Positions 9,433 through 63,209 of a stretch of 64,000 bases of DNA are shown in pieces. Numbering within the stretch: position 1 is the first letter of the stretch; each line of letters starts with the position of its first letter. The stretch comes from Curtobacterium herbarum (GTDB taxonomy: Bacteria; Actinomycetota; Actinomycetes; Actinomycetales; Microbacteriaceae). The stretch covers positions 1,240,001-1,304,000 of the forward strand of contig NZ_JAFBBT010000001.1 of assembly GCF_016907335.1 (NCBI RefSeq), given 5' to 3'. The position numbers were made by a program, and so were the translations under genes. Under the pieces are notes generated by a model that worked only from the letters and a program-made list of their open reading frames with translations, ran no database searches and had not been told where the DNA came from.

Positions 9433-10493
9433 GGGCCTCCATCCCCGCCGGTGTGGCCACCGGGCTCGCTGCGCTCTTCTCGCTGCTGCACCTGGTGCTC
9501 GCGGTCACCACCCTCCCGGGCACACCGGCGGAGGCCGCGCCGGTCATCGCCTGCATGGTCCTCTACGCCGCGGCGACCGCCCTCGCGCTGTTCGTCCGCG
9601 GTCCGGTGCTGCCCGTCTGGGTCGCCTGGTTCGCACTCGCCACCGCGGTCGTGATGCCCATCGTCTGCTCGACGGTCGTCGACCTGCGGGTGGCACCGAC
9701 CTACGCGACCTGGTGGATCGCCGCCGTCGGCACCCTAATGGTCGTGCTCGCCGTCCGGCAGCGTGGACGCTTCGCCTGGGTCGGCGTCGCGTTCTGCACC
9801 GTCCACTCGGTGGCCTGGGCCGGCCCGGAGGCGCTGGGCGCGTTGGGCGCGCTCGGCAACGTGATCTGGTTGTCGGTCGCCACCGGCTTCGCGATCGCGA
9901 TGAGCCACGCCACCCGGATCACCCGCGACTTCGTCCGGGCCGAGCAGGAGACCGTCGACTGGCAGGCGGCGCAGGACGCGCACGTCTCCGAGCGTCAGGT
10001 CCGGCTCGGACAGACGACGCGGATGGCGCTGCCGATGCTCCAGCGCATCATCGACACCTGCGGCGCCCTGGACGAGGACGAGCGCGCCGAGAGCCTGCAC
10101 CTGGAGCAGGCGATCCGCGACGAGATCCGCGGCCGCTCCCTGCTGTCCGACGACGTCCGGGTCGAGGTGATGCGCCTCCGTCGCCGCGGCGCCGTGGTGC
10201 AGCTGCACGACGACGGCGGACTGGACGACCTCGAGACGGTCGAGCAGGAGCGCGTGCACGCCGAGCTCGCCGACGCGCTGCGACGGGCGTACGACGCGGA
10301 CGCGGACAACGTCATCGTCCGGACGGTGCCGGACAACGCCGACGCCGCGGTCACCGTCGTCGGGCTGCGGTTGGACGCGGCCGAGAGCCAGTCCGCGGCG
10401 CTCGGGACGGCGGAGGACGACGAGGACGACGACGACGAGGACGCGTCCGTCGCGCTGTGGCTCGAGATCGACCGGTACGCGGCCCGGGCCTGA
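9429..10493 (+). CDS. Membrane protein of the two-component operon, unknown function
   Basis: A 354-residue protein I do not recognise by name. The first half has about five hydrophobic segments (about 5-165). A cytosolic half follows, with a helical stretch around QRIIDTCGALDEDERAESL and a strongly acidic run near the end (EDDEDDDDED). It lacks the N, G1 and G2 boxes of a kinase ATPase domain, yet its layout (membrane part, helical linker, alpha/beta tail) resembles the preceding kinase. It starts with ATG overlapping the kinase stop by 4 nt, so it is translationally coupled. A role as an accessory sensor or regulator of the kinase is an inference from context. Confidence 0.8.
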   Translation: MRASIPAGVATGLAALFSLLHLVLAVTTLPGTPAEAAPVIACMVLYAAATALALFVRGPVLPVWVAWFALATAVVMPIVCSTVVDLRVAPTYATWWIAAVGTLMVVLAVRQRGRFAWVGVAFCTVHSVAWAGPEALGALGALGNVIWLSVATGFAIAMSHATRITRDFVRAEQETVDWQAAQDAHVSERQVRLGQTTRMALPMLQRIIDTCGALDEDERAESLHLEQAIRDEIRGRSLLSDDVRVEVMRLRRRGAVVQLHDDGGLDDLETVEQERVHAELADALRRAYDADADNVIVRTVPDNADAAVTVVGLRLDAAESQSAALGTAEDDEDDDDEDASVALWLEIDRYAARA

Positions 10494-10513
10494 TCGCCGG
10501 AGCTCGCCGGCCC

Positions 10514-10593
10514 TCGCCGGCGCTGAGTCTCGCCGGCGCCGAGTTTCGCCGGCGCTGAGTTTCGCCCACACTGGGTCTCACCGGCACTGACGT
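10514..10593. repeat. Five degenerate 16-bp tandem repeats
   Basis: Units at 10514, 10530, 10546, 10562 and 10578, based on TCGCCGGCGCTGAGTT and increasingly diverged to the right. The array begins 21 nt after the stop of the upstream membrane-protein gene. Looser TCGCCGG copies continue back to that stop. Confidence 0.8.
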
Positions 10594-10606
10594 CGCCGGA
10601 AACGGG

Positions 10607-10641
10607 GAACGGGCCGGTCGGAGCTACCGACCGGCCCGTTC
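10607..10641. terminator. Hairpin after two-component operon
   Basis: A perfect 15-bp stem (10607-10621 with 10627-10641) and a 5-nt loop, based on GAACGGGCCGGTCG. It follows the 16-bp repeat array and is a good candidate terminator for the regulator operon, without an obvious T-tract. Confidence 0.65.
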
Positions 10642-10647
10642 ACGACC

Positions 10648-10684
10648 CGAGTCAGAGCGACAACCCGAATATCGCCCTGACTCG
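10648..10684. terminator. Second hairpin, adjacent
   Basis: A 13-bp stem with one mismatch (10648-10660 with 10672-10684) and an 11-nt loop, starting 6 nt after the preceding hairpin. It may be a second terminator, possibly for transcription from the minus side, or part of a structured RNA. Confidence 0.5.
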
Positions 10685-10949
10685 TCACGGTGGTGGCGTC
10701 GTACCCTAGTCGGCCACCGACCGGCGATGTACTTCGAGGAAGAACACCGAACACCGTCAATGATGCCATCGGTACCAGTGGGTGACAGTCGTCATTTCGG
10801 GGGACAATTCTGCGGATCTCGAGCGGTTCTCGGACCGCACGTCCCCCGAGCGAGGGGAGACCGAACGGTGTGTCCGCCGGATGGTGACGTCGACACCCGT
10901 CGGTATCGGACGGGGTACAGCGGCCTGACATGGACGGACGCCACCCGAG

Positions 10950-10970
10950 CCGGTACCGGACCGGTACCGG
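10950..10970. repeat. Tandem self-complementary CCGGTACCGG pair
   Basis: CCGGTACCGG occurs at 10950-10959 and again at 10961-10970. Each copy is a palindrome and the two can pair with each other. They lie 13 nt past the accE stop on the minus strand and may help end the accD-accE transcript. Confidence 0.6.
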
Positions 10971-10982
10971 CCGTGTCGTGGT

Positions 10983-11234
10983 TCAGCGGAGCGACCGGCT
11001 CCAGGCGCCCTGGTGGAGCGGCTCGCGCATGCCGCGCGCAGACCGGGTCCAGCCGTCACGCGGTGTGGTCTCCGCCCGCGCACGTCCGGCCGCGGCCGCG
11101 TCGTCGGCCTGTCGCTGCAGGACCGCGATGACGGCCGCGAGTTCCTCGGGGGACGGGTTCCCGCTGACGACGTGCACGTCCGCGACCGACGCGGGGGCGT
11201 CGGCCGGGACGGCAGCGGCGTGGCGCGGGCTCAC
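10983..11234 (-). CDS. accE: Acyl-CoA carboxylase epsilon subunit
   Basis: An 83-residue protein from a GTG at 11234 that overlaps the accD stop by 4 nt (GTGA). It matches the actinobacterial epsilon-subunit pattern: a variable N-terminus rich in Ala, the strand [21 protein letters not shown], and a C-terminal W.rSar.MR.pl..G.W motif ([19 protein letters not shown]). In mycobacteria and streptomycetes this small subunit binds the carboxyltransferase and stabilises or activates the alpha-beta complex. Its position right after accD is the normal one. It is easily missed because of its size and the GTG start. Confidence 0.85.
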
Positions 11235-12826: not shown

Positions 12827-12832
12827 CCGTTC

Positions 12833-12838
12833 ACCATA
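12833..12838 (-). promoter_or_regulatory. Putative -10 box of accD-accE
   Basis: TATGGT on the minus strand, 6 nt before the GTG at 12826, consistent with leaderless transcription. It supports the shorter accD start. Confidence 0.55.
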
Positions 12839-19948: not shown

Positions 19949-21009
19949 GCGGCACCCTGGCACCACGGCGGCGGGTGCTCTCCGTGGTGGCGGCCGTCCT
20001 CGTCGTCGCCCTGGTGGTCGCCGTCCTCCTCGCCATCCGCGCCGCTCGGGAACGCACGCAGTCGGCCGCCCGCACCGTCGGCTCCTGCTCCGTGCTGCTC
20101 CACCCCGGGCCCGACGTCCGCACGCACTGCCCCGGCGTGGACTGGTCCGGCCGCAGCCTCAGCGGGACGGACCTGCGCTTCGCCGACCTCACCGACGCCC
20201 GCCTGGGTGGCACCGACCTGCACGACGCGGTCATGTTCGGCGCCGACCTCAGCCGCGCCGACCTCCGTGGCGCCGACCTGCGCGGTGCAGACCTGACCGG
20301 CGCGGTCCTCACCGACGCGCAGATCGAGGACGCCCGCCTCGACGGCGCTGCCATCGCGGGCATGCAGTTCTCCGGCACCGTGCTGGCGGCGCCCGGGCAG
20401 CTGGTCTGGGTCCAGCCCGGGCAGGGACCGGCCACGGTGTCGTGGACGTCCACCTCGCCGTCCGGGGTGATCAGCAACACCTGCGTCGACAAGCAGGGCC
20501 TGTTCTACCCGGGGACGACCCCGGTGCGCTGCATCGTGGCGACCGGCCCCGACGGCTACCAGGTGGCGCAGTACGACGTGCCGATCACGGTCAACCAGGC
20601 GCCCACCGTCGACGCTCCCGAGACGGTCGCGGCGACGGTCGGCCAGCCGGTCTCCGTCCAGCTGGCGGCGAGCAGCCCGTTCCCGGCGGTCGGCCTGACG
20701 GCGCTCACGGGGGACCTGCCGGACGGCCTCACCTGGGACCAGGACACCCTGCAGATCGTCGGCACGCCGACCGAGGCCGCCGTCGGGACGCACGTCGTCG
20801 TGTTCCGGGCTGAGAACGGCATGGCGGCCGAGGCGTCGATCACGATCACCGTCTCCGCGGTGGACCCCGCAGCCCCCGTCGACCCGGCGGCGCCGGCCGG
20901 CACGACCGACCCCGGGGCGACGGATCCGGGGTCCCCTGACCAGTCAGCGATCGACCCGTCGACCGGACTCCCGACCGCGGCGGCGACCGCCGTGCCGACG
21001 GAACCGTAG
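19945..21009 (+). CDS. Membrane-anchored pentapeptide-repeat and Ig-like protein, copy 2
   Basis: A 354-residue paralog of the protein at 17355-18254. It has an N-terminal membrane helix (about 11-30), pentapeptide repeats (about 70-135, DLRGADLRGADLTGA), the same cysteine pattern (C.VLLHPGPDVRTHC; NTC...GLFYPG..PV.C), and the Ig signature GLTWDQDTLQIVGTP. It differs from copy 1 by a C-terminal tail of about 45 residues rich in Pro, Ala, Asp and Thr, typical of wall-spanning linkers. The GTG at 19945 overlaps the membrane-protein stop by 4 nt. The stop falls in an 8-bp tandem array (21009-21040). Confidence 0.78.
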   Translation: MSGTLAPRRRVLSVVAAVLVVALVVAVLLAIRAARERTQSAARTVGSCSVLLHPGPDVRTHCPGVDWSGRSLSGTDLRFADLTDARLGGTDLHDAVMFGADLSRADLRGADLRGADLTGAVLTDAQIEDARLDGAAIAGMQFSGTVLAAPGQLVWVQPGQGPATVSWTSTSPSGVISNTCVDKQGLFYPGTTPVRCIVATGPDGYQVAQYDVPITVNQAPTVDAPETVAATVGQPVSVQLAASSPFPAVGLTALTGDLPDGLTWDQDTLQIVGTPTEAAVGTHVVVFRAENGMAAEASITITVSAVDPAAPVDPAAPAGTTDPGATDPGSPDQSAIDPSTGLPTAAATAVPTEP

Positions 21010-21040
21010 CTCGTGAGCTCGTGAGCTCGTCAGCTCGTCA
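21009..21040. repeat. 8-bp tandem array joining two gene ends
   Basis: Four units of GCTCGT(G/C)A at 21009, 21017, 21025 and 21033. The array begins on the last base of the plus-strand stop (21007-21009) and ends on the minus-strand stop of gtrA (21038-21040), so it fills the whole space between two convergent genes. Confidence 0.85.
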
Positions 21041-21511
21041 GCGCGTCGAGCTCGACGCCTCCGTGCTCCGCGCCGACTCCTGCTCGACCCGGTCGGGGTG
21101 GTACACCCAGGTCTTGTAGAGCCAGAACCGGAACGCCGTGCCGAGGACCAGCCCGATGCCGTTGCCGGAGACGTTGTCCGCGAGCGCCGAGGTGAACCCG
21201 AGCGCGTAGTGGGAGACCGCGAGGCAACCGAGCGAGATCACCATGCCGCCGAGCGACACGACGACGAACTCGACGCCCTCCTTCGCGGCGACCGAACGGC
21301 GCTGGTGGCGGAAGGTCCAGTACCGGTTGCCGATCCAGTTGACGACGATCGCAACGGTGGTGGACACCACCTTCGCCCAGAAGGGTCCGGAGTGGACGTC
21401 CTCCGGCGAGAGCACCGTCGCCCGCAGCAGGTTGAACACCCCGAAGTCGACGACGAAGCCGACGGCGCCGACGACCCCGAACCGGGCGAGCTGTGCGATG
21501 AGACGCCGCAC
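21038..21511 (-). CDS. GtrA-family membrane protein
   Basis: A 157-residue protein with four hydrophobic segments and the GtrA signature ARFGVVGAVGFVVDFGVFNLL near the N-terminus and NWIGNRYWTF in the middle. GtrA proteins are thought to help move polyprenyl-linked sugars across the membrane for surface glycosylation. The GTG at 21511 has GGAGG 4 nt upstream; the longer frame has no support. It is divergent from purK. A GtrB-like GT2 occurs at 35802-36743 and a polyprenol-phosphate mannose synthase at 54618-55382; either could be its partner. Confidence 0.85.
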   Translation of the reverse strand: MRRLIAQLARFGVVGAVGFVVDFGVFNLLRATVLSPEDVHSGPFWAKVVSTTVAIVVNWIGNRYWTFRHQRRSVAAKEGVEFVVVSLGGMVISLGCLAVSHYALGFTSALADNVSGNGIGLVLGTAFRFWLYKTWVYHPDRVEQESARSTEASSSTR

Positions 21512-24986: not shown

Positions 24987-25496
24987 GTGACCGACACCAC
25001 TGCGCCCGCACCGCTCGTCTCGATCATCATGGGGTCCGACTCGGACTGGCCGACCATGCGCCCCGCCGCGGAGATCCTCGACGAACTCGAGATCCCCTTC
25101 GAGGCCGACGTGGTCTCGGCGCACCGGACCCCGGACAAGATGGTCCGCTTCGGCCGTGCGGCCGCCGGTCGGGGCATCCGCGTCGTCATCGCCGGTGCCG
25201 GGGGCGCCGCGCACCTCCCGGGCATGGTCGCGTCGCTCACGACGCTCCCGGTGATCGGTGTGCCCGTGCAGCTCGCGCGTCTCGACGGTCTCGACTCGCT
25301 GCTCTCCATCGTGCAGATGCCCGCCGGCATCCCCGTGGCGACGATGGCGATCAACGGGTCCGCGAACGCCGGCCTGCTCGCCGCGCGGATCATCGGGTCG
25401 TCCGAGCCCGCCGTGGCGGAGCGGCTGGCGGAGTACGCCACGCGTCTCGAGCAGGTCGTCGAGCGGAAGGCCGCCGCGCTGCGCGACCAGCTCTGA
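24987..25496 (+). CDS. purE: 5-(carboxyamino)imidazole ribonucleotide mutase
   Basis: A 169-residue class I PurE that turns N5-CAIR into CAIR in purine synthesis. The N-terminal [12 protein letters not shown], the [13 protein letters not shown] segment with the conserved His, the [11 protein letters not shown] loop, and VIGVPV are all present. It is separated from purK by the GH6 gene and a terminator, and has a -10 box right before its GTG start. Confidence 0.96.
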
Positions 25497-25512
25497 CCGG
25501 CGGCCGTCCACC

Positions 25513-25594
25513 GACCCCGTCAGGAGGCGGTGGACGACCCCGTCAGGAGACAGTGCTCGGGCCCGGTCAGGAGGCGGTGGCCGACCCCGTCAGA
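25513..25594. repeat. Tandem repeats overlapping the lipoprotein stop
   Basis: About 23-bp units starting at 25513 and 25536, then a diverged unit near 25561 and a partial one at 25583. The core is CCCCGTCAGGAGGCGGTGG. TCA (minus-strand stop) recurs in each unit, and the true stop of the lipoprotein gene is the one at 25567-25569. Confidence 0.75.
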
Positions 25595-26283
25595 CCGTCG
25601 ACGGTGACCGTCCTGGTGGCGCCGGACGCGGTGACGGTGGCGGTCCAGACCGGCGCTGAGCCGGAACCACCGAGCACGAGTGACGTGAGGCTGCTGCCCG
25701 GCACGGCGGCGAGGGCGCGTGTCGCCGCGTCGGCGGCCTGCACCCGCAGCGAGCCGGAGCGGGCGACGTTCGCGGCCTTCGTCGCGGCGTCGGCGTCCTT
25801 CGGGAACGGCCCCGACGTGACGCGGTCGAGCGTGGCGGAGACCACCGACTGCGTCTGCGAGCCGTCCGGGCCGGACACGACGACGGTCCAGTTGTCGCCG
25901 GCACCGACGATCGAGACGGTCGTGCCACCGCCCGCCGCCGCGACGCCCTGGGCGGCGACGGCGCCGAAGTCCACCGAGGTCGGCTGGTCGACACCGCTGC
26001 CGTTGCCGGTGCCGGGCGCGTTGCCGTCGTCCGCCGAGCCGGTCTGGTCGTCCGAGGGGGTGCCCGCCGACGGGGGCGCCGAGGTCGCGCTCGACGGGGT
26101 GTCCGTCGCCGCCGGGGTGCGGGTCGGGCGTCCGGTCGGCTCCGGCGAGGCCGACCGCGAGCTCGAGGGCGTCCGGGAGGGAGTCGGGTCGTCCCCGCTG
26201 GAGCAGGCGGCCAGGGTCGTCGTCAGGCTGAGTCCGAGCACGACCGAGGCGGTGATGACCGGGAGGGATCGACGTCGTTGCAT
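25567..26283 (-). CDS. Lipoprotein of unknown function
   Basis: A 238-residue predicted lipoprotein. A signal peptide ends in the lipobox LAAC (cysteine near residue 27). A Ser/Thr/Pro-rich, disordered linker follows (about 30-100). A folded domain of about 130 residues comes next, with two strands-and-loop halves (TTVSIVGAGDNWTVVVSGPDGSQTQ; PVWTATVTASGATRTVTVDG) and an alpha-helical centre. I do not recognise a named family; it resembles small secreted substrate- or peptidoglycan-associated domains. The start is set by the signal peptide. The C-terminal coding end lies in a tandem repeat. Confidence 0.75.
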   Translation of the reverse strand: MQRRRSLPVITASVVLGLSLTTTLAACSSGDDPTPSRTPSSSRSASPEPTGRPTRTPAATDTPSSATSAPPSAGTPSDDQTGSADDGNAPGTGNGSGVDQPTSVDFGAVAAQGVAAAGGGTTVSIVGAGDNWTVVVSGPDGSQTQSVVSATLDRVTSGPFPKDADAATKAANVARSGSLRVQAADAATRALAAVPGSSLTSLVLGGSGSAPVWTATVTASGATRTVTVDGLTGSATAS

Positions 26284-41471: not shown

Positions 41472-41481
41472 CCGACACCGG

Positions 41482-41533
41482 GCGGCTGGCGGTCAGCGGG
41501 AGCGGACGCGGCTGGCGGTCAGCGGGAGCGGAG
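41482..41533. repeat. 26-bp tandem duplication overlapping a stop
   Basis: Units 41482-41507 and 41508-41533 match at 25 of 26 bases. The minus-strand stop TCA of the GT2 gene (41519-41521) lies inside the second unit, and the first unit carries an identical copy. Confidence 0.88.
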
Positions 41534-42664
41534 GCGTCGCGCGGCGTCGCCGACGCGGTCGGCCAGCCGCACCACGCGACGCGCACGGATCCGGTCGATC
41601 TCGCCCTGGAGCTCGCGCCGCAGGGCGTCGGCCCGGTCGCGCTCGAACTGCACCGTCGTGCGGAGGGTGTCCGCGGTGCCCTCGCCCGCACGGACCGCGT
41701 CCTCCAGGTCCTGGATCCGGGAGTCGCGGGAGGCGATCGCCCGGCCCGTGCGCTGCAGCGACCGCAGTTCCTCGTCACTCACCACCGGGTCCGGAGCAGC
41801 ACCGAGCGACGACGACCCGGCGCGGCGCAGCACCTCGACGATCCCGTCGTCGCGGGTGAACGGGCCCGTCGCCGCGTCGTCGTCGGTCACGAACCGCAGC
41901 GAGAAGACGGCCTGCAGGGTTCCCTCCTGCAGGCGGCGGTAGTCGATCATCCCGTGGTGGCGCGGGCTGGGCGTCAGGTCGGGGTTGGCTTCGTAGGCCC
42001 GGCCGCTGACCTCGACGCGGTGCGCGTACTGGTCCCAGGACCGCCAGGGCAGGTGCAGGACCTCGAGCGCGAGTTCCTCGGGTACCGGGGCGCCGTTCGC
42101 GACACTGGCGCGGTGGTTGCCCTGGACGACCGTGACGGACGGATCACCGACGTGCACGGTGTTCGGCGTCGGGGGTGCGATGAGCCCTGCGGCACGCAGC
42201 TCGTCGGCGGATCGCTCGTCGCGCCAGTGCAGTCGCTCGATGCCGGCACCGGACGTGGCGAGTTCCCCGGTCAGGTTGACCACCGGGACGAAGAACGCAC
42301 CGACCACGGGGTCGAGGCGTTCGAACACCTGCCGGACGGTGAGCGTCCGGTCCACGGGGATGATGAACTCGTCCGCGTCGGCGTTGACCACCCAGTCCGC
42401 ACCGTGCACGGTCGCCGCGTCGCGGGCCATGCCGGTGACGACGGTGCCCTGCTGCTTGCGGTGCACCGGGTCGTGGCGCAGGTCGACGGTGACGTCGTCC
42501 CGCTCGGCGAAGGCCGCGAGCAGGTCGGTCGTGCCGTCGACCGAACCGTTGTCGGTGATGACGAACACGTCGAAGCCCTGCGCGACGTGGTGGTCGAGCC
42601 AGGCAGGGAGGACGTCCGCTTCGTCGCGGACCATCAGGGTGACGGCGAGGATCATGTGCTGCAT
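41519..42664 (-). CDS. Glycosyltransferase family 2 (GT92-like) with coiled-coil tail
   Basis: A 381-residue protein. Residues 4-250 form a GT-A domain of the Glyco_tranf_2_4/GT92 type: LMVRDEADVLPAWLDHHVAQGFDVFVITDNGSVDGT, then WVVNADADEFI with a DADE metal site. The HMID..R.Q.G region follows. The C-terminal ~90 residues are highly charged and heptad-like (EELRSLQRTGRAIASRDSRIQDLEDAVRAGEG...), a likely coiled coil. It is the last gene of the wzm-wzt-GT4-GT2-GT2 operon. The ATG at 42655 is an alternative start. Donor unknown. Confidence 0.88.
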   Translation of the reverse strand: MQHMILAVTLMVRDEADVLPAWLDHHVAQGFDVFVITDNGSVDGTTDLLAAFAERDDVTVDLRHDPVHRKQQGTVVTGMARDAATVHGADWVVNADADEFIIPVDRTLTVRQVFERLDPVVGAFFVPVVNLTGELATSGAGIERLHWRDERSADELRAAGLIAPPTPNTVHVGDPSVTVVQGNHRASVANGAPVPEELALEVLHLPWRSWDQYAHRVEVSGRAYEANPDLTPSPRHHGMIDYRRLQEGTLQAVFSLRFVTDDDAATGPFTRDDGIVEVLRRAGSSSLGAAPDPVVSDEELRSLQRTGRAIASRDSRIQDLEDAVRAGEGTADTLRTTVQFERDRADALRRELQGEIDRIRARRVVRLADRVGDAARRLRSR

Positions 42665-50865: not shown

Positions 50866-52950
50866 GTGAAGAAGCTCGTCGCCATCGCCGCCACCGTGCT
50901 CGCCGTCGCGAGCGTGCTGGTCGGCTTCCAGATCGCCGGACCGACCGCGGGGCAACAGCCTGCGAACGCCCTCAGTGGCTCGTCGTTCCAGGCCGGCAAC
51001 ATCATCTCCGACGCGAACTTCTACAACGGCGGGTCGATGACGATCAACCAGGTGCAGGCGTTCCTCGACAGCCAGGTGTCGACGTGCACGAACAGCAACT
51101 GCCTCCGCAACGGCCGGTACTCGATGAACAACCGCGGTGCCGATGCCATGTGCGCCGCGGTCACCGGCGGGTCGTCCCTCTCGACCGCCCAGATCGTCAC
51201 TCGCGTCGGCAAGGCCTGCGGGATCAGCCCGAAGGTGATGCTGGTCACGCTGCAGAAGGAACAGGGCCTGATCACGTCCCGCGGGCCGTCCGCCGCCGTG
51301 CTCGAGCGCGCCATGGGGTACGCCTGCCCGGACAACGTCGGTGGGCACTGTGACCCCGCGTACGCCGGCGTCGGCAACCAGATGTACTGGTCGGCGTGGC
51401 AGTGGAAGCGCTACAGCAACCCGCCCGGCACGAGCAACTACTTCACCTGGTTCAACCCGGGCGGCAACCGAGCGATCCAGTACAACGTGCCGACGTCGTG
51501 CGGCACGAAGTCCGTCGCGGTCCAGAACAAGGCAACCGCCGCGCTGTACTACTACACGCCGTACACGCCGAACACCGCCGCACTGAACAACCTCTACGGC
51601 ACCGGCGACGGCTGCTCCGCCTACGGCAACCGCAACTTCTGGCGCATGTACACCGACTGGTTCGGCTCCACCACCGGCAACGCGCCGGTGCCCACCACGG
51701 CGAAGGGCAGCTACGACGCCGTCACCGCGTCGTACAACACCGCCACGGTGGCCGGCTGGGCGCTCGACACCACGACCACGGCGAGCACGCGGATCCGGGT
51801 CACGATCGGATCGACGTCCACCACCGCCCCTGCGACCGGCAACCGTCCCGACGTCGCCGCCGCCTACCCGAAGTCCGGGGCGAAGCACGGGTTCACCGCG
51901 ACCGTGGCCGCACCCGCCGGCTCGCAGCAGGTCTGCGTCAGCGCGCTCTCGTCGAACGGCAAGACCTCGGCCGACCTCGGGTGCAGGACGGTCACCGTGC
52001 TGAACGGTTCGCCGTTCGGTTCGCTCGACCGGGCGGCCGCCGCTCCCGGCGGCGTCTCGGTCGCCGGGTGGGCGATCGACCCCGAGACCGCGAAGTCGAT
52101 CGGCGTCACCGTCACCTCCGACGGCAAGGCCGTGAAGAAGTTCACCGCGACGAAGAGCCGCCCGGACGTCGCCCGGGCCTACCCGAAGGCAGGAGCGGCG
52201 CACGGCTTCGGCGCGACGAGTCCCGTCCCGGCGGGCAGCCACCGCATCTGCGTCACGGGGACGAACGTCGGCAAGGGCAGCAACGCGACGATCGGGTCGT
52301 GCTCGACGGTCGACGTGCCCGGATCCCGTCCGATCGGGTCCTTCGAGCGGGCCACCGTCACGCCCACGGCCGTCACCGTGACCGGGTGGGCGCTCGACGG
52401 CGACTCCAAGAGCCCGATCCGGGTCGAGGTCACCGTCGACGGTGTCGCGAAGCGCGTCGCCGCGGACGGCTCCCGTCCGGACGTCGCGAAGCTCTACCCG
52501 ATCTACGGTTCGGCGCGCGGGTTCACCGTGTCGGTCCCGGCGTCACGCGGCACGCACGAGGTCTGCGTCAAGGCACTGAACACCGGTTCGGGCAACTACA
52601 GCCCTCGGCTGGGGTGCAAGACCGTCACGGTGGTGAACGCCGCACCGATCGGGAGTCTCGACGAGGTCAAGCCGGTCGCCGGGGGCATCAGTGCTGCGGG
52701 GTGGGCGATCGACCCGGACACGAAGTCCTCGATCGCCGTGGACCTGACCGTCGACTCGACGGTGAAGCGGGTCACCGCATCGGCCAGCCGCCCGGACGTG
52801 GCGCGCTCGTACCCCGCGGCCGGTGCCGCACACGGGTACCGGGCCACGCTGGGGGCCTCGGCCGGCACGCACAAGGTGTGCGCGACGGCCGTCGACTGGG
52901 CCGGCGGAGCCGGGACGCCGCTGGGCTGCAAGACGGTGACGGTGCCCTGA
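50866..52950 (+). CDS. Secreted lysozyme/transglycosylase-like protein with four repeats
   Basis: A 694-residue secreted protein. A signal peptide covers about 1-32. Residues 40-275 form a domain common in actinobacterial hemagglutinin- or amidase-annotated proteins: INQVQAFLDSQV, AAQIV-like helix, then VMLVTLQKEQGLI with Glu132 in a lytic-transglycosylase-like position, then GVGNQMYWSAWQWKRY and ALYYYTPYTPNTAA. Four repeats of about 103 residues follow (from about 279, 381, 485, 592), each with GWA(L/I)D, VTVDG-like, RPDVA..YP..G..HGF and VC..A.N.G motifs. The same repeat occurs three times in the GH6 enzyme at 22955-24943. GTG at 50866 follows GGAAAGG. It probably acts on or binds the cell wall. 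Confidence 0.8.
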   Translation: MKKLVAIAATVLAVASVLVGFQIAGPTAGQQPANALSGSSFQAGNIISDANFYNGGSMTINQVQAFLDSQVSTCTNSNCLRNGRYSMNNRGADAMCAAVTGGSSLSTAQIVTRVGKACGISPKVMLVTLQKEQGLITSRGPSAAVLERAMGYACPDNVGGHCDPAYAGVGNQMYWSAWQWKRYSNPPGTSNYFTWFNPGGNRAIQYNVPTSCGTKSVAVQNKATAALYYYTPYTPNTAALNNLYGTGDGCSAYGNRNFWRMYTDWFGSTTGNAPVPTTAKGSYDAVTASYNTATVAGWALDTTTTASTRIRVTIGSTSTTAPATGNRPDVAAAYPKSGAKHGFTATVAAPAGSQQVCVSALSSNGKTSADLGCRTVTVLNGSPFGSLDRAAAAPGGVSVAGWAIDPETAKSIGVTVTSDGKAVKKFTATKSRPDVARAYPKAGAAHGFGATSPVPAGSHRICVTGTNVGKGSNATIGSCSTVDVPGSRPIGSFERATVTPTAVTVTGWALDGDSKSPIRVEVTVDGVAKRVAADGSRPDVAKLYPIYGSARGFTVSVPASRGTHEVCVKALNTGSGNYSPRLGCKTVTVVNAAPIGSLDEVKPVAGGISAAGWAIDPDTKSSIAVDLTVDSTVKRVTASASRPDVARSYPAAGAAHGYRATLGASAGTHKVCATAVDWAGGAGTPLGCKTVTVP

Positions 52951-52991
52951 GCTCCAGCCCTGAGCCCTGAGCCCTGAGCCCTGAGCCCTGA
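52944..52991. repeat. 7-bp GCCCTGA repeats overlapping a stop
   Basis: GCCCTGA occurs at 52944-52950, where it includes the stop TGA, and then five times in tandem at 52957-52991. Each unit again contains TGA, so the ORF end has been multiplied. Confidence 0.88.
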
Positions 52992-53133
52992 GCCCTTGCT
53001 CGACCACCACGGACGCCGTCGCCCACCGGGCGGCGGCGTCCTGCTGTGCCGTGGCTCTCGCCGCCGGTCCCGGCGCGGGACGCGCCCGGTGCCGGTCCAG
53101 TCCCACCGGTGGCTGCTGTGAGAGGATCGTCCG

Positions 53134-54617: not shown

Positions 54618-55382
54618 ATGACCCGCACCACCGAACCCCGAGCCCTCGTCATCGTCCCGACGTACAACGAGGCCGAGAACATCCGCGACATCGCGGCCCG
54701 CATCCTCGAGACCGTGCCGACGGCGTCGCTGCTGGTCGTGGACGACGGCAGCCCGGACGGCACCGGCGACCTGGTCGAGGCGATGGCTCAGGACGACGAC
54801 CGCGTGCACCTGCTCCGCCGCGCCGGCAAGCTCGGCCTCGGGACCGCGTACGTCGCCGGGTTCCGCTGGGGCCTGGAGCAGGGGTACGACCTGCTCGTCG
54901 AGATGGACGCGGACGGCTCCCACCCCGCTGACCGTCTGCCGGCGCTGATCGCGGCGGTGGCCGACGCGGACCCCGCCGACGACGTCATGCTCGCGATCGG
55001 CTCGCGCTGGATCCGTGGCGGCTCGGTCGTCGACTGGCCCAAGCGCCGCGAGGTCCTCAGCCGCGGGGCGAACACGTACGCCCGGCTGATCCTCGGCCTG
55101 GCCGTCCACGACATCACCGCCGGCTTCCGCGTCTACCGCGCCGAAGCGATCGCCCGGATGGACCTCGGGTCGATCGACTCGAAGGGCTACTGCTTCCAGA
55201 TCGACATGACGCTGCGCACGCACGACCTGGGGGGACGCATCGTCGAGGTGCCGATCCGCTTCCGCGACCGCGTGCACGGGGTGTCGAAGATGAGCAAGGA
55301 CATCATCGTCGAGGCGATGGTCCGCACCACCCAGTGGGGCCTGCAGCGCCGGTTCCGTCCCCGGTCGCAGCGCCGCGCCTGA
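54618..55382 (+). CDS. Polyprenol monophosphomannose synthase (DPM1-like)
   Basis: A 254-residue GT2 of the dolichol-phosphate mannosyltransferase group without C-terminal membrane helices, as in the catalytic part of mycobacterial Ppm1. It has VIVPTYNEAENI, VVDDGSPDGT, the DxD-type EMDADGSH, RWIRGGSVVDWP, TAGFRVYR and the C-terminal FRDRVHGVSKMS. It would transfer mannose from GDP-mannose to polyprenyl phosphate, giving the donor for GT-C enzymes such as the WAED proteins. ATG follows AGAAGGAA. GDP-mannose supply would begin with manA at 61911. The stop lies in a 20-bp tandem repeat. Confidence 0.93.
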   Translation: MTRTTEPRALVIVPTYNEAENIRDIAARILETVPTASLLVVDDGSPDGTGDLVEAMAQDDDRVHLLRRAGKLGLGTAYVAGFRWGLEQGYDLLVEMDADGSHPADRLPALIAAVADADPADDVMLAIGSRWIRGGSVVDWPKRREVLSRGANTYARLILGLAVHDITAGFRVYRAEAIARMDLGSIDSKGYCFQIDMTLRTHDLGGRIVEVPIRFRDRVHGVSKMSKDIIVEAMVRTTQWGLQRRFRPRSQRRA

Positions 55383-55406
55383 GGCAGCAGCGCCGCGCCT
55401 GAGGCA
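55367..55406. repeat. 20-bp tandem duplication overlapping a stop
   Basis: Perfect units 55367-55386 and 55387-55406. The stop TGA of the mannose synthase gene (55380-55382) lies in the first unit and is duplicated in the second. Confidence 0.92.
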
Positions 55407-55424
55407 CTGGGCGGGTCGGACCCG

Positions 55425-55456
55425 GGGCGTGTCAGGTCCGGGGCGTGTCAGGTCCG
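55425..55456. repeat. 16-bp tandem duplication overlapping a stop
   Basis: Perfect units 55425-55440 and 55441-55456. The minus-strand stop of the ligase-like gene (55448-55450) lies in the second unit and is copied in the first. Only 18 nt separate it from the repeat of the convergent gene. Confidence 0.92.
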
Positions 55457-56749
55457 GGGGAGTCGGATCCGCCAGGACCGCCGCCTGGCCGAGACCACCA
55501 GCACGGTGACGAAGAGCATGAGCCCGGCACCGTGCAGCACGTAGCTCTCCGCGGCGCTCGTGACACCGAGCAGGACGAGCACCGCCGCGGGCCAGACGTA
55601 CGCCACCCCCGGGAAGGTCGTGGCGGTCACCCAGGACCGGGCGAAGGCGAGTGCGGCGGCGCCGACGAGCAGGAGCATGCCCGCGAGGCCGATCTGCAGC
55701 CACGCGTCGACCACGGCGTCCAACCCCGAGGTGAAGCGGACCCCGGACGGGTCGACGAACGCCACGTACGGCACGACCGGCTCGGTGGGCCAGGTGCCGA
55801 CCCAGCCCCAGCCCTGGATCGGGTACTGGGCGATGAACGTGCGGATCTCGGACCAGAGCTCGAGCCGGGTCGTCGTCCCGCCCGCGGCGCCGATCTCGGG
55901 GAGCACCCGGTCGCGCGCGACGACGAGGAACACCGCCATGGCGACGACGAACGTGCTGAGGACCGTGTTCACCACGGGGCGGGTGCCGGGTCGGGCGTGT
56001 CGGAGTGACCAGAGCGCCAGCGCGGTGACGGTGAGCGCGATCGTCGCGAGTCCGGTGATGGGTGACTGCACCAGCATGAGGGTGACGACCGCGGTGGCGG
56101 TCGACACGATCGCCCGCCACCGTGTCACCGACCGGGTGAGGAACTCGACGACGAAGGTGACGAGGGCGGTGGCGGCGATGAAGCCCATGAAGTTGCGGGT
56201 GCCGCCGATGCCCTGGATCGGCCCACCGAACGCGATGTCCCCGCGGATGCCGAACGCCGGGATCGGCAGGTCCAGGACCAGACCGGAGAGGACCTCCAGC
56301 CCGAGTGCCACGGCCAACAGGACCCGGAACGCGTCACCGCAGGCCCGGATGACCTGCACCAGGTCGCGGCCGAGCGCCAGGTAGAGACCCAGCCCGACGA
56401 AACCGAGCGTCGCCGCGAACCCCCGGAGCGCGACCCAGGAGTACTCGCTCCACAGCACGCTGAGCCCGCAGTACCCGACGAGGGCGATCAGGGACAGCGG
56501 CAGGACCCCGTGCCACTCGATCCGGTAGCGCTGTCCGAGCAGGCTCAGCCCGGCCAGGACGACGAGTGTGACGAGGACCGCCCACGTCCCCGGAGCGCCG
56601 ACGAGGGCCCGGACGGTGGGCTCGCCGAAGGCGAAGAGCACGATCGTCGTGGCGAGTGCCTGGCTGAACCGGCCGCCCGCGGAGAACCCGATCCAGGCGG
56701 ACAGGTACCGACGTGCGCGCACGCGTCGGGTCGTCCGGCCGTCCGTCAT
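55448..56749 (-). CDS. O-antigen ligase/polymerase-like membrane protein, copy 1
   Basis: A 433-residue protein with about eleven helices and a large outside loop near the C-terminus: TTTRLELWSEIRTFIAQYPIQGWGWVGTWP and then HAxx-less LDAVVDAWLQIGLAGMLLLVG. The GWGW and downstream aromatic/acidic pattern are characteristic of the Wzy/WaaL (Wzy_C) superfamily that joins or polymerises lipid-linked glycans. GTRNFMGFIAATALV in the middle is also typical. It is divergent from the WAED copy 2 gene and convergent with the mannose synthase. Start 56749 is chosen; 56791 is possible. Confidence 0.85.
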   Translation of the reverse strand: MTDGRTTRRVRARRYLSAWIGFSAGGRFSQALATTIVLFAFGEPTVRALVGAPGTWAVLVTLVVLAGLSLLGQRYRIEWHGVLPLSLIALVGYCGLSVLWSEYSWVALRGFAATLGFVGLGLYLALGRDLVQVIRACGDAFRVLLAVALGLEVLSGLVLDLPIPAFGIRGDIAFGGPIQGIGGTRNFMGFIAATALVTFVVEFLTRSVTRWRAIVSTATAVVTLMLVQSPITGLATIALTVTALALWSLRHARPGTRPVVNTVLSTFVVAMAVFLVVARDRVLPEIGAAGGTTTRLELWSEIRTFIAQYPIQGWGWVGTWPTEPVVPYVAFVDPSGVRFTSGLDAVVDAWLQIGLAGMLLLVGAAALAFARSWVTATTFPGVAYVWPAAVLVLLGVTSAAESYVLHGAGLMLFVTVLVVSARRRSWRIRLPRT

Positions 56750-56828
56750 CCGTCCATGATGACGTACGCGACCCGGCTGCAGCTGCGCCATCGCGGAGCG
56801 TCGATATCACGGATCGTCGCTCCACCAG

Positions 56829-56834
56829 TAGCGT
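56829..56834 (+). promoter_or_regulatory. Putative -10 box of WAED copy 2
   Basis: TAGCGT, 9 nt before the ATG at 56844; identical to the box before galE. Confidence 0.45.
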
Positions 56835-56843
56835 CGGCCCTCG

Positions 56844-58262
56844 ATGCGACGCCCCGGGACACAGCGCTGGGCGGCCCCTGCGGCCGTGCTCGTCGGGGTG
56901 CTCGCCGCCGCCGTCGCGTGGGTGCGGCTCGGACCGGAGGCGCGCGGGACCGGGTGGGCCGAGGACATCGGCCTGTTCTTCCGTGAACGGCTCGAGCTCG
57001 GGGCCGTCGAGAGCGTCGTGCATCCCTACGCGGGCTACCTGCACGTGGTCCCGCGACTGGTGGTCGACGTCGCCTTCCTGCTGCCGGTCGAGTGGTACGT
57101 CCTCGCGGTCTCGGCGATGTCCTGCCTGCTCGTCGGCGCGGTGTGCGGCGGCGTCTGGGTCCTGGCGCGGGACGTCGTGCCGTCCTGGCCGCTCCGACTC
57201 GTGCTGGCCGCGGTGCCCGTGCTGCTGCCCACGGCGCCGTGGGAGGTCTCCGGCACCGCGGCGAACCTGCACACCTTCGGCCTGTTCCTGGCACCGTGGC
57301 TCGTCGCGCACCGGGTCCGGACGTGGTGGGGCGCCGCGGTCCTGGCGCTCGTGACCGTGCTGGTGGTCGGGTCGGAGACGCAGGCCGTCGTCTTCCTGCC
57401 CCTCCTCGTGCTGGCGTGGTCGCCGTCGGCCGGGCGCGGCGACACCGGGGTGGAGGACCGTCGGCGGGGCACGCGGTGGCGCGCACTGCCCGTGACCCTC
57501 GCCGCCGTCGGGACCGCAGCCGCGCAGATCGGGACGGCGCTGACCACTGCGCGCGCGTCCGCGCCGGGCGCACCCACGGCCCAGGACGTCGCCGCCGGCT
57601 GGGCACTGCAGACGGTCGGTGGACTCTGGACCGCCGACGTCGGTGCCGTCGGGCGCGCCGTGGTGGCCGACGGCTGGGCCGTCGTGGCGGTGCCGGCCGT
57701 CGCACTCCTCGTGGTCGTGGTGCTCGGCGCGGCGACCGCACTCCGCGACGGTCACCCCCGCCGCGCGGTCCTCACACTGGCGCTCGCGCTCGGTGCGGCG
57801 GCGGTCTGGACCGCAGCGCTGGTCGCGAACGCCTCGGCCGACGGCCGGTGGTCCCGCGCCGCACCCGGCGACCTCGTCGACGCGACACCGTCCCGGTACG
57901 CCGCCGCTGCCGGCCTCCTGCTCTGCGCGTCCGTGGTCGTCGCTGCCGCCGTGCTCGTCGACCGCCGCGTCCATCGGGGACGAGACCGGGCAGAGGACGC
58001 GTCCGGTCGGCGTCGTCGACAAACGGGAGGCCCGACCGCCGCCGTCTTCGTCACCGTCGGCTGGTCCGTGGTCACCCTGCTCGTCGCCTCGTGGGTCGGC
58101 AACGTGCCCGGCGTGGCACAGCGAGCCTCCGGGCCGACGTGGCAGCCGCAGTTCGTCGCCGCGGAACGCACGTGTGCCCGGCATCCGTCCGGGACGGTGC
58201 GGATCCGAGCGCTGCCCTGGAGCGCCGAGGTGCCCTGCTCGCTGGTGCTCCGCGACCGCTGA
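56844..58262 (+). CDS. Polytopic membrane protein, WAED family, copy 2
   Basis: A 472-residue paralog of 53134-54585. GWAEDIGLFFRERLELG (Glu40-Asp41) and YAGYLHVVPRLVVD (62-75) align with copy 1, then about nine further helices. A cytosolic loop before the last helix (about residues 370-395) is basic and variable. The short C-terminal domain ends in a conserved-looking ERTCARHPSGTVRIRALPWSAEVPC, with two cysteines, similar to the copy 1 end (SRCAQTP...VPCAI). Like copy 1 it is next to an O-antigen-ligase-like gene. I infer an outside glycosyltransferase-like role. Confidence 0.72.
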   Translation: MRRPGTQRWAAPAAVLVGVLAAAVAWVRLGPEARGTGWAEDIGLFFRERLELGAVESVVHPYAGYLHVVPRLVVDVAFLLPVEWYVLAVSAMSCLLVGAVCGGVWVLARDVVPSWPLRLVLAAVPVLLPTAPWEVSGTAANLHTFGLFLAPWLVAHRVRTWWGAAVLALVTVLVVGSETQAVVFLPLLVLAWSPSAGRGDTGVEDRRRGTRWRALPVTLAAVGTAAAQIGTALTTARASAPGAPTAQDVAAGWALQTVGGLWTADVGAVGRAVVADGWAVVAVPAVALLVVVVLGAATALRDGHPRRAVLTLALALGAAAVWTAALVANASADGRWSRAAPGDLVDATPSRYAAAAGLLLCASVVVAAAVLVDRRVHRGRDRAEDASGRRRRQTGGPTAAVFVTVGWSVVTLLVASWVGNVPGVAQRASGPTWQPQFVAAERTCARHPSGTVRIRALPWSAEVPCSLVLRDR

Positions 58263-58289
58263 GCACGCGGCACCGGGGCAGGACGCTCC

Positions 58290-58331
58290 GCGCGTCGGTC
58301 AGTGCGCGTCGGTCAGCGCCCGTCGATCAGG
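58290..58331. repeat. 14-bp tandem array overlapping a stop
   Basis: Three units at 58290, 58304 and 58318 (core GCGCGTCGGTCAG) with few mismatches. The minus-strand stop TCA of the ligase-like gene (58327-58329) is in the third unit, and the other two keep TCA at the same place. Confidence 0.88.
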
Positions 58332-59706
58332 GGTTCGCAGCCCACCGGAACGCCCGCTTGGCCAGCGGCGTCCGCGGACCGTCGCCGACGGAGACGGGCT
58401 CCTCGGTGACGAGCACGATCCGCGACTTGATCGCCATGAGGGCGAAGAGCACCCAGTTGCCCTGGTAGAGCAGCCGCGACTCGGCGACGGACTGCACCAG
58501 GAGCGCGACCACGACGAGCAGGGGGAACAGGGTCACCGGGTCGAACGGGCGCGGACGGAGGTCCGGTCCGAACCCGGGTCGCGTCGCGCCGGCCCACGAC
58601 CGCGCCAGGGTGGTGAGCACGTAGACGGCGAAGAGGACCAGGCCGACGATGCCGGTCTGCATCCAGACGTCCAGCCCGGCGTCGTGCGCCTGCAGGTACT
58701 GCACGCCGTGCAGCGGTGCCAGACCGGACAGCATCGGGATGTTCGGCCACCAGTAGCCGATCCAGCCCCACCCGAGCACCGGGTGCTGCACGACGAGCCC
58801 CCACACGGCGGCCCAGATCGTGCCACGACCGGTCAGGTCCGAGGAACGACCGAGCACGTCGAGGAGCTGCTCGCGGCCGAGGACCACCGCGACCACCACG
58901 ACGGCGACCACGGCGACCAGCCCGAGGTACCGGCCGGCCCGGTGCCCACTGGGCACGCGGCGCATCCACAGCGCGACGGCGAGGACACCAGCGACGGCGA
59001 CCGCGGCGACGATCACCGTCGACGAGCGGGTCAGCGCGAACACCACACCGGCGACCACGAGCCAGCCGATCGCCTGGTTCCGACGGAGCCGGCCCTCGGC
59101 GAGCTGCACGGCGACGGCGATCGCGGCGAGCAGCGCGACCATCGCGAGCAGGTTGGCGTTGCCCGGCAGCCCCTGGATGCGTCCACCGGTGAACAGCTCC
59201 GCGCGGGAGAAGTAGAACGCGTCCGGGATCTTCCGGTCGCCGTAGTCGGTCCAGATCGGGGCGATCGGGTGCCGGACCACGACGGCCACGACGGCCTCGA
59301 ACAGCAGGGACAACCCGAGCACCCAGCGGAACGCCAGGCTGGCCGCGTCGAGGATGCGGCGCCACGTCAGCGTCGACGCGATCGCGAACGCGACGAGCGC
59401 GCACACGACCTGCGCGACGGTGCTCGCGAGCGTCGCCGGGCGCCAGTGCGACCAGATCACCGTGACCAGGCACCAGGCGAGGAAGAGCCAGAGAGCGCGT
59501 GGCGTGCGGGTGAGGGGCGGGCGGGCCCGGACCACGACGCTGATGCCCCAGGCGCCCTCGAGCGCCCAGACGGCCGCCGCGCCGTACCAGGTGATCGTGT
59601 TCGGGACTGCGTCCCCGGCGAACAGCGTCAGCAGGACCGCGGTGGCGAGGGCGAACGCCTCCCGCTCGGGGACGGATCCGCGGGCGAGGGGCCAGGTGTT
59701 CGTCAC
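58327..59706 (-). CDS. O-antigen ligase/polymerase-like membrane protein, copy 2
   Basis: A 459-residue protein with about eleven helices. The outside loop has RGTIWAAVWGLVVQHPVLGWGWIGYWWP and AHDAGLDVWMQTGIVGLVLFAVYVL, matching copy 1 at 55448. GLPGNANLLAMVALL in the middle parallels the IGGTRNFMGF segment of copy 1. The Wzy_C/WaaL assignment is supported by the GWGW and HD.GLD patterns. GTG at 59706 has TAGCCT 7 nt upstream. Two such proteins, each next to a WAED protein, suggest two parallel end reactions. Confidence 0.85.
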   Translation of the reverse strand: MTNTWPLARGSVPEREAFALATAVLLTLFAGDAVPNTITWYGAAAVWALEGAWGISVVVRARPPLTRTPRALWLFLAWCLVTVIWSHWRPATLASTVAQVVCALVAFAIASTLTWRRILDAASLAFRWVLGLSLLFEAVVAVVVRHPIAPIWTDYGDRKIPDAFYFSRAELFTGGRIQGLPGNANLLAMVALLAAIAVAVQLAEGRLRRNQAIGWLVVAGVVFALTRSSTVIVAAVAVAGVLAVALWMRRVPSGHRAGRYLGLVAVVAVVVVAVVLGREQLLDVLGRSSDLTGRGTIWAAVWGLVVQHPVLGWGWIGYWWPNIPMLSGLAPLHGVQYLQAHDAGLDVWMQTGIVGLVLFAVYVLTTLARSWAGATRPGFGPDLRPRPFDPVTLFPLLVVVALLVQSVAESRLLYQGNWVLFALMAIKSRIVLVTEEPVSVGDGPRTPLAKRAFRWAANP

Positions 59707-59713
59707 GGGGGAC

Positions 59714-59719
59714 AGGCTA
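59714..59719 (-). promoter_or_regulatory. Putative -10 box of ligase-like copy 2
   Basis: TAGCCT on the minus strand, 7 nt before the GTG at 59706, supporting that start over the upstream ATG at 59727. Confidence 0.5.
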
Positions 59720-59730
59720 GCGCGCACCGG

Positions 59731-61818: not shown

Positions 61819-61898
61819 CGCCGAGAGTCTATGTATCGCGGATCGTGCACGTCGTGCGACGCTCCCGTCCCGCGCTGCTCCGGTCCGGCGCCGCCGGA

Positions 61899-61904
61899 TA
61901 CGCT
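61899..61904 (+). promoter_or_regulatory. Putative -10 box of manA
   Basis: TACGCT, 6 nt before the ATG at 61911, the same hexamer as before rmlC and the biotin carboxylase gene. Confidence 0.55.
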
Positions 61905-61910
61905 CGACCC

Positions 61911-63137
61911 ATGTTCCTCGGCATCACGAACACCCCGCGCGACTACGCCTGGGGGTCCGTCTCCGCGATCCCCGAACTCCTCGGACGGACCGTCACCGGC
62001 GTCCCGCAGGCCGAACTCTGGCTCGGCGCCCACCCCGGCAGCCCGAGCGTCGTGGTCAACCCCGCCATGGTCGGCGGCGCGGACACCCTGCTCGACTGGA
62101 TCGCCGCCGAACCGCAGACCGCCCTCGGCGACGACCGCACCGGTCTGCCCTTCCTGCTCAAGGTCCTCGCCGCCGCCGCCCCGCTCTCGCTGCAGGCGCA
62201 CCCGACGCCCGAGCAGGCGCGCGAGGGCTTCGACCGCGAGGAAGCCGCGGGCGTCCCGATCGACGACCCGGCCCGCAACTACAAGGACCCGTTCCCGAAG
62301 CCCGAGCTCGTCGTCGCACTGAGCGACCGCTTCGAGGCGCTCAGTGGCTTCCGCCCGGTCGCCGACGCGCTCGCCGAGGTCGAGGCGCTCGACGCCGGGT
62401 CCGGGCGGCTGGGCCCGCTCGTCGTGCACCTGCAGCAGGGGCTCGAGGACACCGTGCGCTGGCTCGAGGAGACCGACGACTCCGCCGGGGCCGTGATCGG
62501 CGCGGTCGGACACCTGGCAGCGGAGGCGGTGGCCGCCGCCGACGTCGCCGGGACCACCGTCTCGCCGAACACCGCGACTGCCGCCGACCTCGCCCGGGCC
62601 TACCCGGACGACCCGGGCGTCGTCGTCTCGCTCCTCATGCACCGCGTGACGCTGACCCGCGGCGAGGCCATGTACCTGCCGGCGGGGAACATCCACGCGT
62701 ACCTCGACGGCCTGGGCATCGAGCTGATGGCCCCGTCGGACAACGTGCTCCGCGGCGGCCTGACCCCGAAGCACGTCGACGTGCCCGAGCTCCTGCGCGT
62801 CCTCGACTTCACGGCGTACCCGGCGCCGCTGCTCGAGCCGGAGCACCTCAGCCCGGTCGTCGACCGCTTCGCCCCCGAGGGCGTCGGCTTCGCCCTGGTG
62901 CGGGTCACGAGCGACGGTCGTCCGGTCGGGCTCACGACCGGTGGCACGGCACCGCTGACGGGGCCGTCGATCGCGATCTGCACCGAGGGGGTCGTCACGC
63001 TCGTCGGGGCGCACTCGGCGACGCTGCTCCGCCAGGGGGAGTCCTGCTACGTCACCCCGGACGAGGGCGACGTGTCGGTCGAGGCGGACGCCGGCAGCGG
63101 CCGCACCGCGACGGTCTTCATCGCCACCGGCGCGTAG
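61911..63137 (+). CDS. manA: Mannose-6-phosphate isomerase, class I
   Basis: A 408-residue zinc isomerase linking fructose 6-phosphate and mannose 6-phosphate, the first step to GDP-mannose. It has the N-terminal ITNTPRDYAWGS, LWLGAHPGSPS, the metal-binding LQAHPTPEQA and KPELVVAL, and the late YLPAGNIHAYLDGLGIELMAPSDNVLRGGLTPKHVDV, all diagnostic of type I PMI. It would supply mannose for the mannose synthase at 54618 and other GTs. The stop begins a 40-bp tandem repeat. Confidence 0.95.
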   Translation: MFLGITNTPRDYAWGSVSAIPELLGRTVTGVPQAELWLGAHPGSPSVVVNPAMVGGADTLLDWIAAEPQTALGDDRTGLPFLLKVLAAAAPLSLQAHPTPEQAREGFDREEAAGVPIDDPARNYKDPFPKPELVVALSDRFEALSGFRPVADALAEVEALDAGSGRLGPLVVHLQQGLEDTVRWLEETDDSAGAVIGAVGHLAAEAVAAADVAGTTVSPNTATAADLARAYPDDPGVVVSLLMHRVTLTRGEAMYLPAGNIHAYLDGLGIELMAPSDNVLRGGLTPKHVDVPELLRVLDFTAYPAPLLEPEHLSPVVDRFAPEGVGFALVRVTSDGRPVGLTTGGTAPLTGPSIAICTEGVVTLVGAHSATLLRQGESCYVTPDEGDVSVEADAGSGRTATVFIATGA

Positions 63138-63209
63138 GCCGGCGCTCCCGGGCGGACCAGCCGGTCCGCCCGCGGGGGCCGGCACTCCCGGGCGGACCAG
63201 CCGGTCCGC
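63137..63209. repeat. 40-bp tandem duplication with hairpins between manA and galE
   Basis: Units begin at 63137 (last base of the manA stop) and 63177. They match at 32 of 33 bases over 63137-63169 and 63177-63209. Each contains a hairpin with 8-bp (first copy) or 7-bp stem around GCGGACC-AGCC-GGTCCGC, so the duplication doubled a likely terminator. The galE -10 box begins right after the second copy. Confidence 0.88.

Follow-up and report, generated by a model that had tools for sequence, protein, structure and literature searches.

The closest described counterpart of the repeats studied here is found in Borg elements (PMC9879509; this and the other cited reports were available as excerpts). 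Borg elements contain independently arising, fast-changing head-to-tail repeats whose periods are multiples of three in genes and mostly not outside them, and some of these repeats start in gene ends. Mycobacterial variable number tandem repeats (VNTRs) and mycobacterial interspersed repetitive units (MIRUs) are intergenic arrays of Actinobacteria that vary in copy number; one begins 40 bp past a stop codon, and array length has been tied to the expression of one mycobacterial gene (PMC2734929). Beggiatoaceae carry short intergenic arrays of TAACTGA direct repeats that include stop triplets (PMC4679880), and fail-safe stop codons are extra stops located 3' of the real stop (PMC6764699). Here, we analysed tandem repeat arrays at gene ends in a 64-kb stretch of the Curtobacterium herbarum genome (bases 1240001–1304000 of a 3,515,806-base single-contig genome), referred to below as the window, in which 52 genes were called. 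A first-pass annotation of the window had reported tandem duplications on or adjoining the stops of many genes and had stated that no described system of this kind was known, which is too strong given the Borg elements (PMC9879509) and the mycobacterial array 40 bp past a stop (PMC2734929).

Judging from these excerpts, the Curtobacterium arrays differ from each of the described systems. Borg repeats are perfect, A-enriched and located inside genes in about half of the cases (PMC9879509), whereas the Curtobacterium arrays are GC-rich, often imperfect and have a measured bias towards stops over starts. MIRUs form one family with units scattered in 41 places (PMC2734929), whereas the Curtobacterium units are unrelated: by eye, the listed units differ and no single dispersed unit is shared between them. 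This fits the earlier proposal that the arrays reflect a process and not a repeat family. The Beggiatoaceae repeats consist of one fixed 7-bp motif that lies mostly before starts and is thought to be regulatory (PMC4679880), unlike the Curtobacterium arrays, whose motif varies and which are rare near starts. Unlike fail-safe stop codons (PMC6764699), extra stops in Curtobacterium are not enriched in frame. Literature searches, one of which named the genus, listed no report of a stop-side tandem repeat bias or of a high repeat load in Curtobacterium, with most subscription journals outside its reach.

The stop-side bias of tandem repeats is real, strong and far beyond chance. In the window, Tandem Repeats Finder detected an array at all ten places named in the first-pass annotation, and according to our gene calls every one of these ten arrays has a stop at it or just before it. 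The genome was sampled in 40 stretches of 20 kb (L014–L053), mostly every 80 kb, which together with the window comprise 864 kb with 785 called genes and a G+C content of 71.6%. In this sample, a stricter array finder (period 6–70, at least two full copies, score of at least 14) retained seven of the ten window arrays. It gave densities of 1.83 arrays/kb for the first 60 nt past codirectional stops (28 in 15.3 kb) and 1.17/kb for convergent gaps (24 in 20.5 kb), compared with 0.33/kb near starts (5 in 15.2 kb), 0.32/kb in codirectional gap middles (8 in 24.8 kb), 0.43/kb in divergent gaps (12 in 28.0 kb) and 0.09/kb in gene interiors (64 in 700 kb). Fixed windows placed at gene ends (gaps of 25 nt or more) gave 30 array-bearing windows out of 529 at stops and 6 out of 534 at starts, with a mean of 0.0 for both in five rounds of dinucleotide shuffling. 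Head-to-tail copies therefore occur beyond chance, as in repeats of the slippage type (VNTRs in the general sense). With syntenic relatives added, the counts were 53/942 stop windows and 7/959 start windows (Fisher p = 2e-10). Across all Curtobacterium sequence used (2.38 Mb, 2063 genes), densities were 1.09/kb at codirectional stops and 1.31/kb in convergent gaps, versus 0.19 near starts, 0.26 in divergent gaps and 0.067 in gene interiors. Gene positions come throughout from our own caller and not from curated annotation; the calls are backed by mutual matches for 36 to 41 of the 52 window genes in each of nine relatives.

Array periods follow a frame rule. Inside genes, the period is a multiple of three in 63 of 64 arrays in our genome and in 133 of 134 across all Curtobacterium sequence used. 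Near stops, this holds for 24 of 62 arrays in the 864-kb sample; the remaining 38 are not multiples of three, where about two thirds are expected without a frame rule. This bears out the earlier observation that unit lengths at gene ends, unlike those in genes, are mostly not multiples of three. The duplications near stops are mostly 6–27 bp long, and 24 of the 62 stop-side arrays overlap the stop. In 26 perfect arrays, the bases beyond two copies ranged from -1 to 18. Within convergent gaps, 20 of 53 arrays span a stop where 14.2 are expected, so that placement is not far from uniform.

The DNA around stops and starts also differs in constraint. Two pairs of close genomes (G006/G012 and G045/G046) were compared for substitutions. 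In G006/G012, divergence was 12.6% in convergent DNA less than 80 nt from a stop, 8.4% in codirectional DNA less than 60 nt from a stop, 4.8% near starts and 16.8% at fourfold sites; in G045/G046, it was 9.3% at convergent stops, 7.3% at codirectional stops, 2.3–3.0% at starts and 8.8% at fourfold sites. Relative to fourfold sites, convergent stop-proximal DNA thus changes at 75–105% of the rate and start-proximal DNA at about 30%. Indels of at least 5 bases had densities per kb, in G006/G012 and G045/G046, respectively, of 21.3 and 11.6 at convergent stops, 5.1 and 5.3 at codirectional stops, 5.2 and 5.0 in codirectional middles, 2.6 and 0.7 at codirectional starts, and 0.22 and 0.00 at divergent starts. 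DNA 3' of stops, above all between convergent genes, is therefore nearly free of constraint, and DNA 5' of starts is constrained. This difference in constraint suffices to explain most of the contrast in array density between stops and starts. Divergent gaps of 160–400 nt fit this account as well, as their arrays lie mostly in the middle (0.80/kb, 7 in 8.8 kb) and seldom within 70 nt of a start (0.07/kb, 1 array in 13.7 kb).

We consider it likely that the arrays are ordinary slippage-type tandem duplications that become visible where selection lets them persist. We infer a molecular step, either strand slippage or misaligned repair, that would generate tandem duplications genome-wide, after which copy number would drift, and a selective filter. 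A duplication inside a gene would persist mainly when its length is a multiple of three, and one 5' of a start would upset promoter or ribosome-binding spacing. A duplication 3' of a stop would have no effect, and one across a stop would spare the protein, because the first copy retains the stop. As duplications would be harmless at and after stops, the repeated stop triplet would be a by-product. Slippage tolerated where the frame is irrelevant was among the explanations offered in the first-pass annotation, and it is well supported by the stop bias, the frame rule and the near-neutral substitution rates of convergent-stop DNA, which are direct observations, as are the differing units at shared gene ends and the copy-number changes described below.

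Arrays with a similar bias occur outside Curtobacterium at a lower level. In 60 loci of up to about 20 kb from five groups of other Actinobacteria (56 of 75 non-Curtobacterium loci, the rest being short or ungrouped, and 4 further loci), arrays were found in 15 of 741 stop windows and 5 of 813 start windows. Stop windows contained more arrays in Curtobacterium than in these Actinobacteria (53/942 versus 15/741, p = 1.5e-4), where both the control loci and the nine-relative set are each mostly one neighbourhood, so that gaps within a set are not fully independent. Total array density was 0.179/kb in our genome, 0.085 and 0.121/kb in two other Curtobacterium sets and 0.006–0.089/kb in other groups. 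A single array was found in 166 kb from 8 loci of other Microbacteriaceae, a small set, and one in 200 kb of Escherichia coli K-12. For E. coli, only this total is usable, as our gene caller recovered 0 of 43 RefSeq stops in one 50-kb stretch, probably for lack of the high third-position GC that its first training step requires. As for repair, MutS was not found in any of 20 genomes searched, whereas NucS was found in all 20 and Ku in 18 of 20. NucS leaves indels uncorrected according to the available part of a review (PMC8228993), and the lack of MutS together with NucS may contribute. As a cause of the high density in Curtobacterium, this repair state was rejected, because seven other genera have it as well. 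Nor does the lack of MutS account for the longer units, since classical repair works best on loops of 1–3 bp, as described in the available part of PMC4060949.

Relatives carried an array at 20 of 101 orthologous species-ends for which our genome also has one, compared with 9 of 299 for which the end in our genome is array-free, each convergent gap being counted from both sides. When the 14 gene ends for which three or more species were eligible are considered, arrays were present in 29 of 101 species-ends with convergent gaps of 40 nt or longer, and the recurrence of arrays across species is thus partly due to gap type. The units at shared gene ends mostly differ between species by eye. At the junction 58262/58327, the finder detected arrays in 5 of 13 usable loci, with a different unit in each; of the 30 loci, which include our genome, 16 were dropped because the upstream gene was matched elsewhere (negative gap) and one had no match. 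In these 16 loci (L177–L179, L181, L183–L188, L190, L195, L196, L198, L199 and L203), the neighbour at the convergent junction was not the best hit for the gene that terminates at 58262. Paralogues or frequent swapping of this gene may account for this, or the result may be an artefact of how the script chooses matches. At the end of gene 9429–10493, two relatives also have an array of period 16, and one unit has GCGCTGAG in common with our own unit. Judging from this shared stretch, some arrays at this gene end may be homologous between species.

Five pairs of close genomes were aligned: G006/G012 at 92.7% (255/280 kb), G045/G046 at 95.4% (190/240 kb), G056/G057 at 99.2% (38/40 kb), G041/G042 at 99.0% (20/20 kb) and G031/G025 at 95.7% (15/20 kb). 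Whole copies differ in three of them. In G006/G012, a 10-bp copy across a stop is present in one member only; in G056/G057, a 12-bp unit over a stop has two versus three copies; and in G041/G042, a 7-bp array differs by two units. Across all five pairs, 14 tandem-type indels were found outside gene interiors. Whole-copy changes thus happen between close genomes, albeit in small number, and this does not establish them as the main source of indels.

A number of observations weigh against tolerated slippage as the full account. The copy-number differences between close genomes may be gains or losses alike. Of the 77 indels that the two larger pairs show near convergent stops, only 2 passed the tandem test, and the tandem indels of G006/G012 comprise two near codirectional stops and two near codirectional starts. 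These recent events therefore back slippage itself only slightly. Tolerated slippage also leaves the higher array load of Curtobacterium relative to other Actinobacteria unexplained. Furthermore, convergent stop-proximal DNA contained 77 indels per 513 substitutions, compared with 68 per 931 in other non-start non-coding DNA (odds ratio 2.06, p = 4e-5), while substitution divergence was nearly equal in stop-proximal DNA (11.0%) and the far part of convergent gaps (10.4%). A twofold excess of indels per substitution at near-equal divergence is not predicted by relaxed constraint alone; it could reflect a weak mutational hot spot or alignment effects. In convergent gaps longer than 400 nt, arrays are denser near stops (1.79/kb) than far from them (0.30/kb, p = 6e-4). 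Arrays also recur at the same convergent gaps across species: with one count per gap, 21 of 67 carried an array, with 32 pairs against 22.2 expected (p = 0.033; p = 0.010 when each gap is counted from both sides, and several tests were made). Finally, array edges at the stop are slightly more frequent than expected in convergent gaps of 60–400 nt under a placement null (16 versus 10.6, sd 2.8).

The rival that these last observations favour is a mutational hot spot at convergent gene ends, where either head-on transcription or nascent RNA left naked beyond the stop would expose single-stranded DNA or stall replication and thereby produce more tandem duplications. The indel excess, the densities in long gaps and the recurrence at p = 0.03 speak for it, yet we consider it unlikely. 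Codirectional stop-proximal DNA has no such excess (37 indels per 565 substitutions versus 68 per 931, p = 0.68). In convergent gaps of 160–400 nt, 16 arrays within 70 nt of a stop (2.54/kb) compare with 7 farther away (1.41/kb), a difference that is not significant (p = 0.21). Gaps inside one array cannot be counted as independent, a single complex event may appear as several gaps, long convergent gaps may hide uncalled genes and several tests were made, all of which limits the reading of these counts. That just 2 of the 77 convergent-stop indels are tandem by test lowers the odds of a hot spot. The hot spot proposed in the first-pass annotation thus retains the twofold convergent indel excess, but the near and far densities in gaps of 160–400 nt are not significantly different, and it is not needed. 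It is accordingly doubtful that tandem repeats in Curtobacterium mark the collision points of two transcription units by this route. Array starts anchored at the stop were considered separately. When all gene ends are taken together, 49 of 159 left edges fall at -7 to +3 where about 27 are expected if uniform, and stop-anchored arrays have somewhat more copies than those reaching further into the gene (mean 3.7 versus 3.0, p = 0.02). Anchoring was rejected because the excess shrank to the 16 versus 10.6 given above once a placement null was applied to convergent gaps.

Selection for a function of the arrays fares worse than a hot spot. One such reading, that the arrays are transcription terminators or Rho-loading tracts that expanded because they are functional, has two points in its favour: a stem is duplicated in the array after 63137, and C slightly exceeds G in arrays (40.9% versus 37.1%). 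However, the predicted folding energy per nt of arrays (-0.402; for the arrays of 40 nt or longer out of 109) matches that of array-free stop-side windows (-0.408; 300 drawn from 1066; p = 0.68), which does not support hairpin terminators as a general cause. C-rich tracts of the Rho type were rejected, as array-free DNA has about the same composition (39.2% C versus 35.9% G). The units also vary between species, and we regard terminators as very unlikely to be the source of the arrays, although single arrays such as 63138–63204 may differ from the set in hairpin strength.

Back-up stop codons, i.e., copies of the stop retained by selection against read-through, are more improbable still. The stop triplet is indeed repeated in most window arrays, as previously annotated (7 of 10). 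However, in-frame extra stops in codons 1–10 make up 0.93% of codons in our genome, compared with 1.18% and 1.42% in the other frames; the corresponding values are 0.73% versus 0.68% and 1.41% in relatives and 0.0115 per codon versus 0.0133 and 0.0177 in other Actinobacteria. The excerpt of PMC6764699 likewise reports that no selection for additional stops was found in eubacteria. Of 40 arrays containing a stop, just 11 have a frame-preserving period, and the frame and period counts together contradict back-up stops as a general cause, which the first-pass annotation had offered as one possibility. Although repeats are a known cause of assembly errors (PMC6868369), an assembly artefact can practically be dismissed, as many genomes carry such arrays with different units and close pairs have arrays in common that differ by whole units.

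The ten window arrays illustrate the range of arrangements. Four include or follow the stop of a gene on the plus strand. A 15-bp array (2.6 copies) at 1879..1917 lies 3 nt 3' of the stop of gene 244–1875 (+, phosphoglucomutase/phosphomannomutase), and a 16-bp array of CTCGCCGGCGCTGAGT at 10513..10590 begins 19 nt past the stop of gene 9429–10493 (+). A 7-bp array of GCCCTGA at 52944..52996 takes in the stop of gene 50866–52950 (+). An imperfect duplication of about 40 bp at 63138..63204 (two copies) lies directly 3' of the stop at 63137 (+, phosphomannose isomerase type). Its two copies differ by an indel and contain a GCGGACC..GGTCCGC stem, which is thus duplicated, and Tandem Repeats Finder assigned it a period of 22 with 63% matches.

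Four arrays lie where genes converge. An 8-bp array of AGCTCGTG at 21008..21054 covers two convergent stops, at 21009 (+) and 21038 (-, GtrA-like). A degenerate 23-bp array (3.6 copies, 73% matches) at 25511..25593 has three GTCAGGAG copies, the last of which contains the stop of gene 25567–26283 (-); the plus-strand gene (AIR carboxylase) ends at 25496. In a 26-bp array (2.1 copies) at 41482..41536, the second copy holds the stop of gene 41519–42655 (-, glycosyltransferase), and the plus-strand gene ends at 41471. A 14-bp array (3 copies) at 58289..58330 ends on the stop of gene 58327–59727 (-, Wzy_C/O-antigen ligase domain), whose convergent plus-strand partner ends at 58262. The remaining two are perfect: a 20-bp duplication (2 copies) at 55367..55406 spans the stop at 55382 (+, glycosyltransferase family 2), and a 16-bp array (2.4 copies) at 55422..55459 spans the stop of gene 55448–56722 (-). 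By eye, the stop triplet lies within the repeated units of the arrays at 21008, 25511, 41482, 52944, 55367, 55422 and 58290. The arrays lost with the stricter finder are those at 25511 (degenerate), 41482 (scored as slightly short of two copies) and 63138 (indel).

A window protein had 77–89% identity to five Curtobacterium loci among its named matches and at most 67% to the remaining ones. Several of 14 scanned window proteins look like surface polysaccharide synthesis (19975–21511, 39579–42655 and 54618–59727), including glycosyltransferases, an O-antigen ligase domain and a GtrA-like protein; proteins of the phosphoglucomutase and phosphomannose isomerase types are encoded elsewhere in the window. 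Gene 19975–21009 contains a 60-bp in-frame repeat at 20181–20318, and its protein matches pentapeptide-repeat families.

Should the convergent indel excess turn out to be mutational, it would tie small duplications in bacteria to colliding transcription. The arrays caution that repeated stop codons at gene ends require no function. They are candidate fast-changing strain markers, and they show, as a natural read-out, at which sites a compact GC-rich genome tolerates duplications that break the frame.

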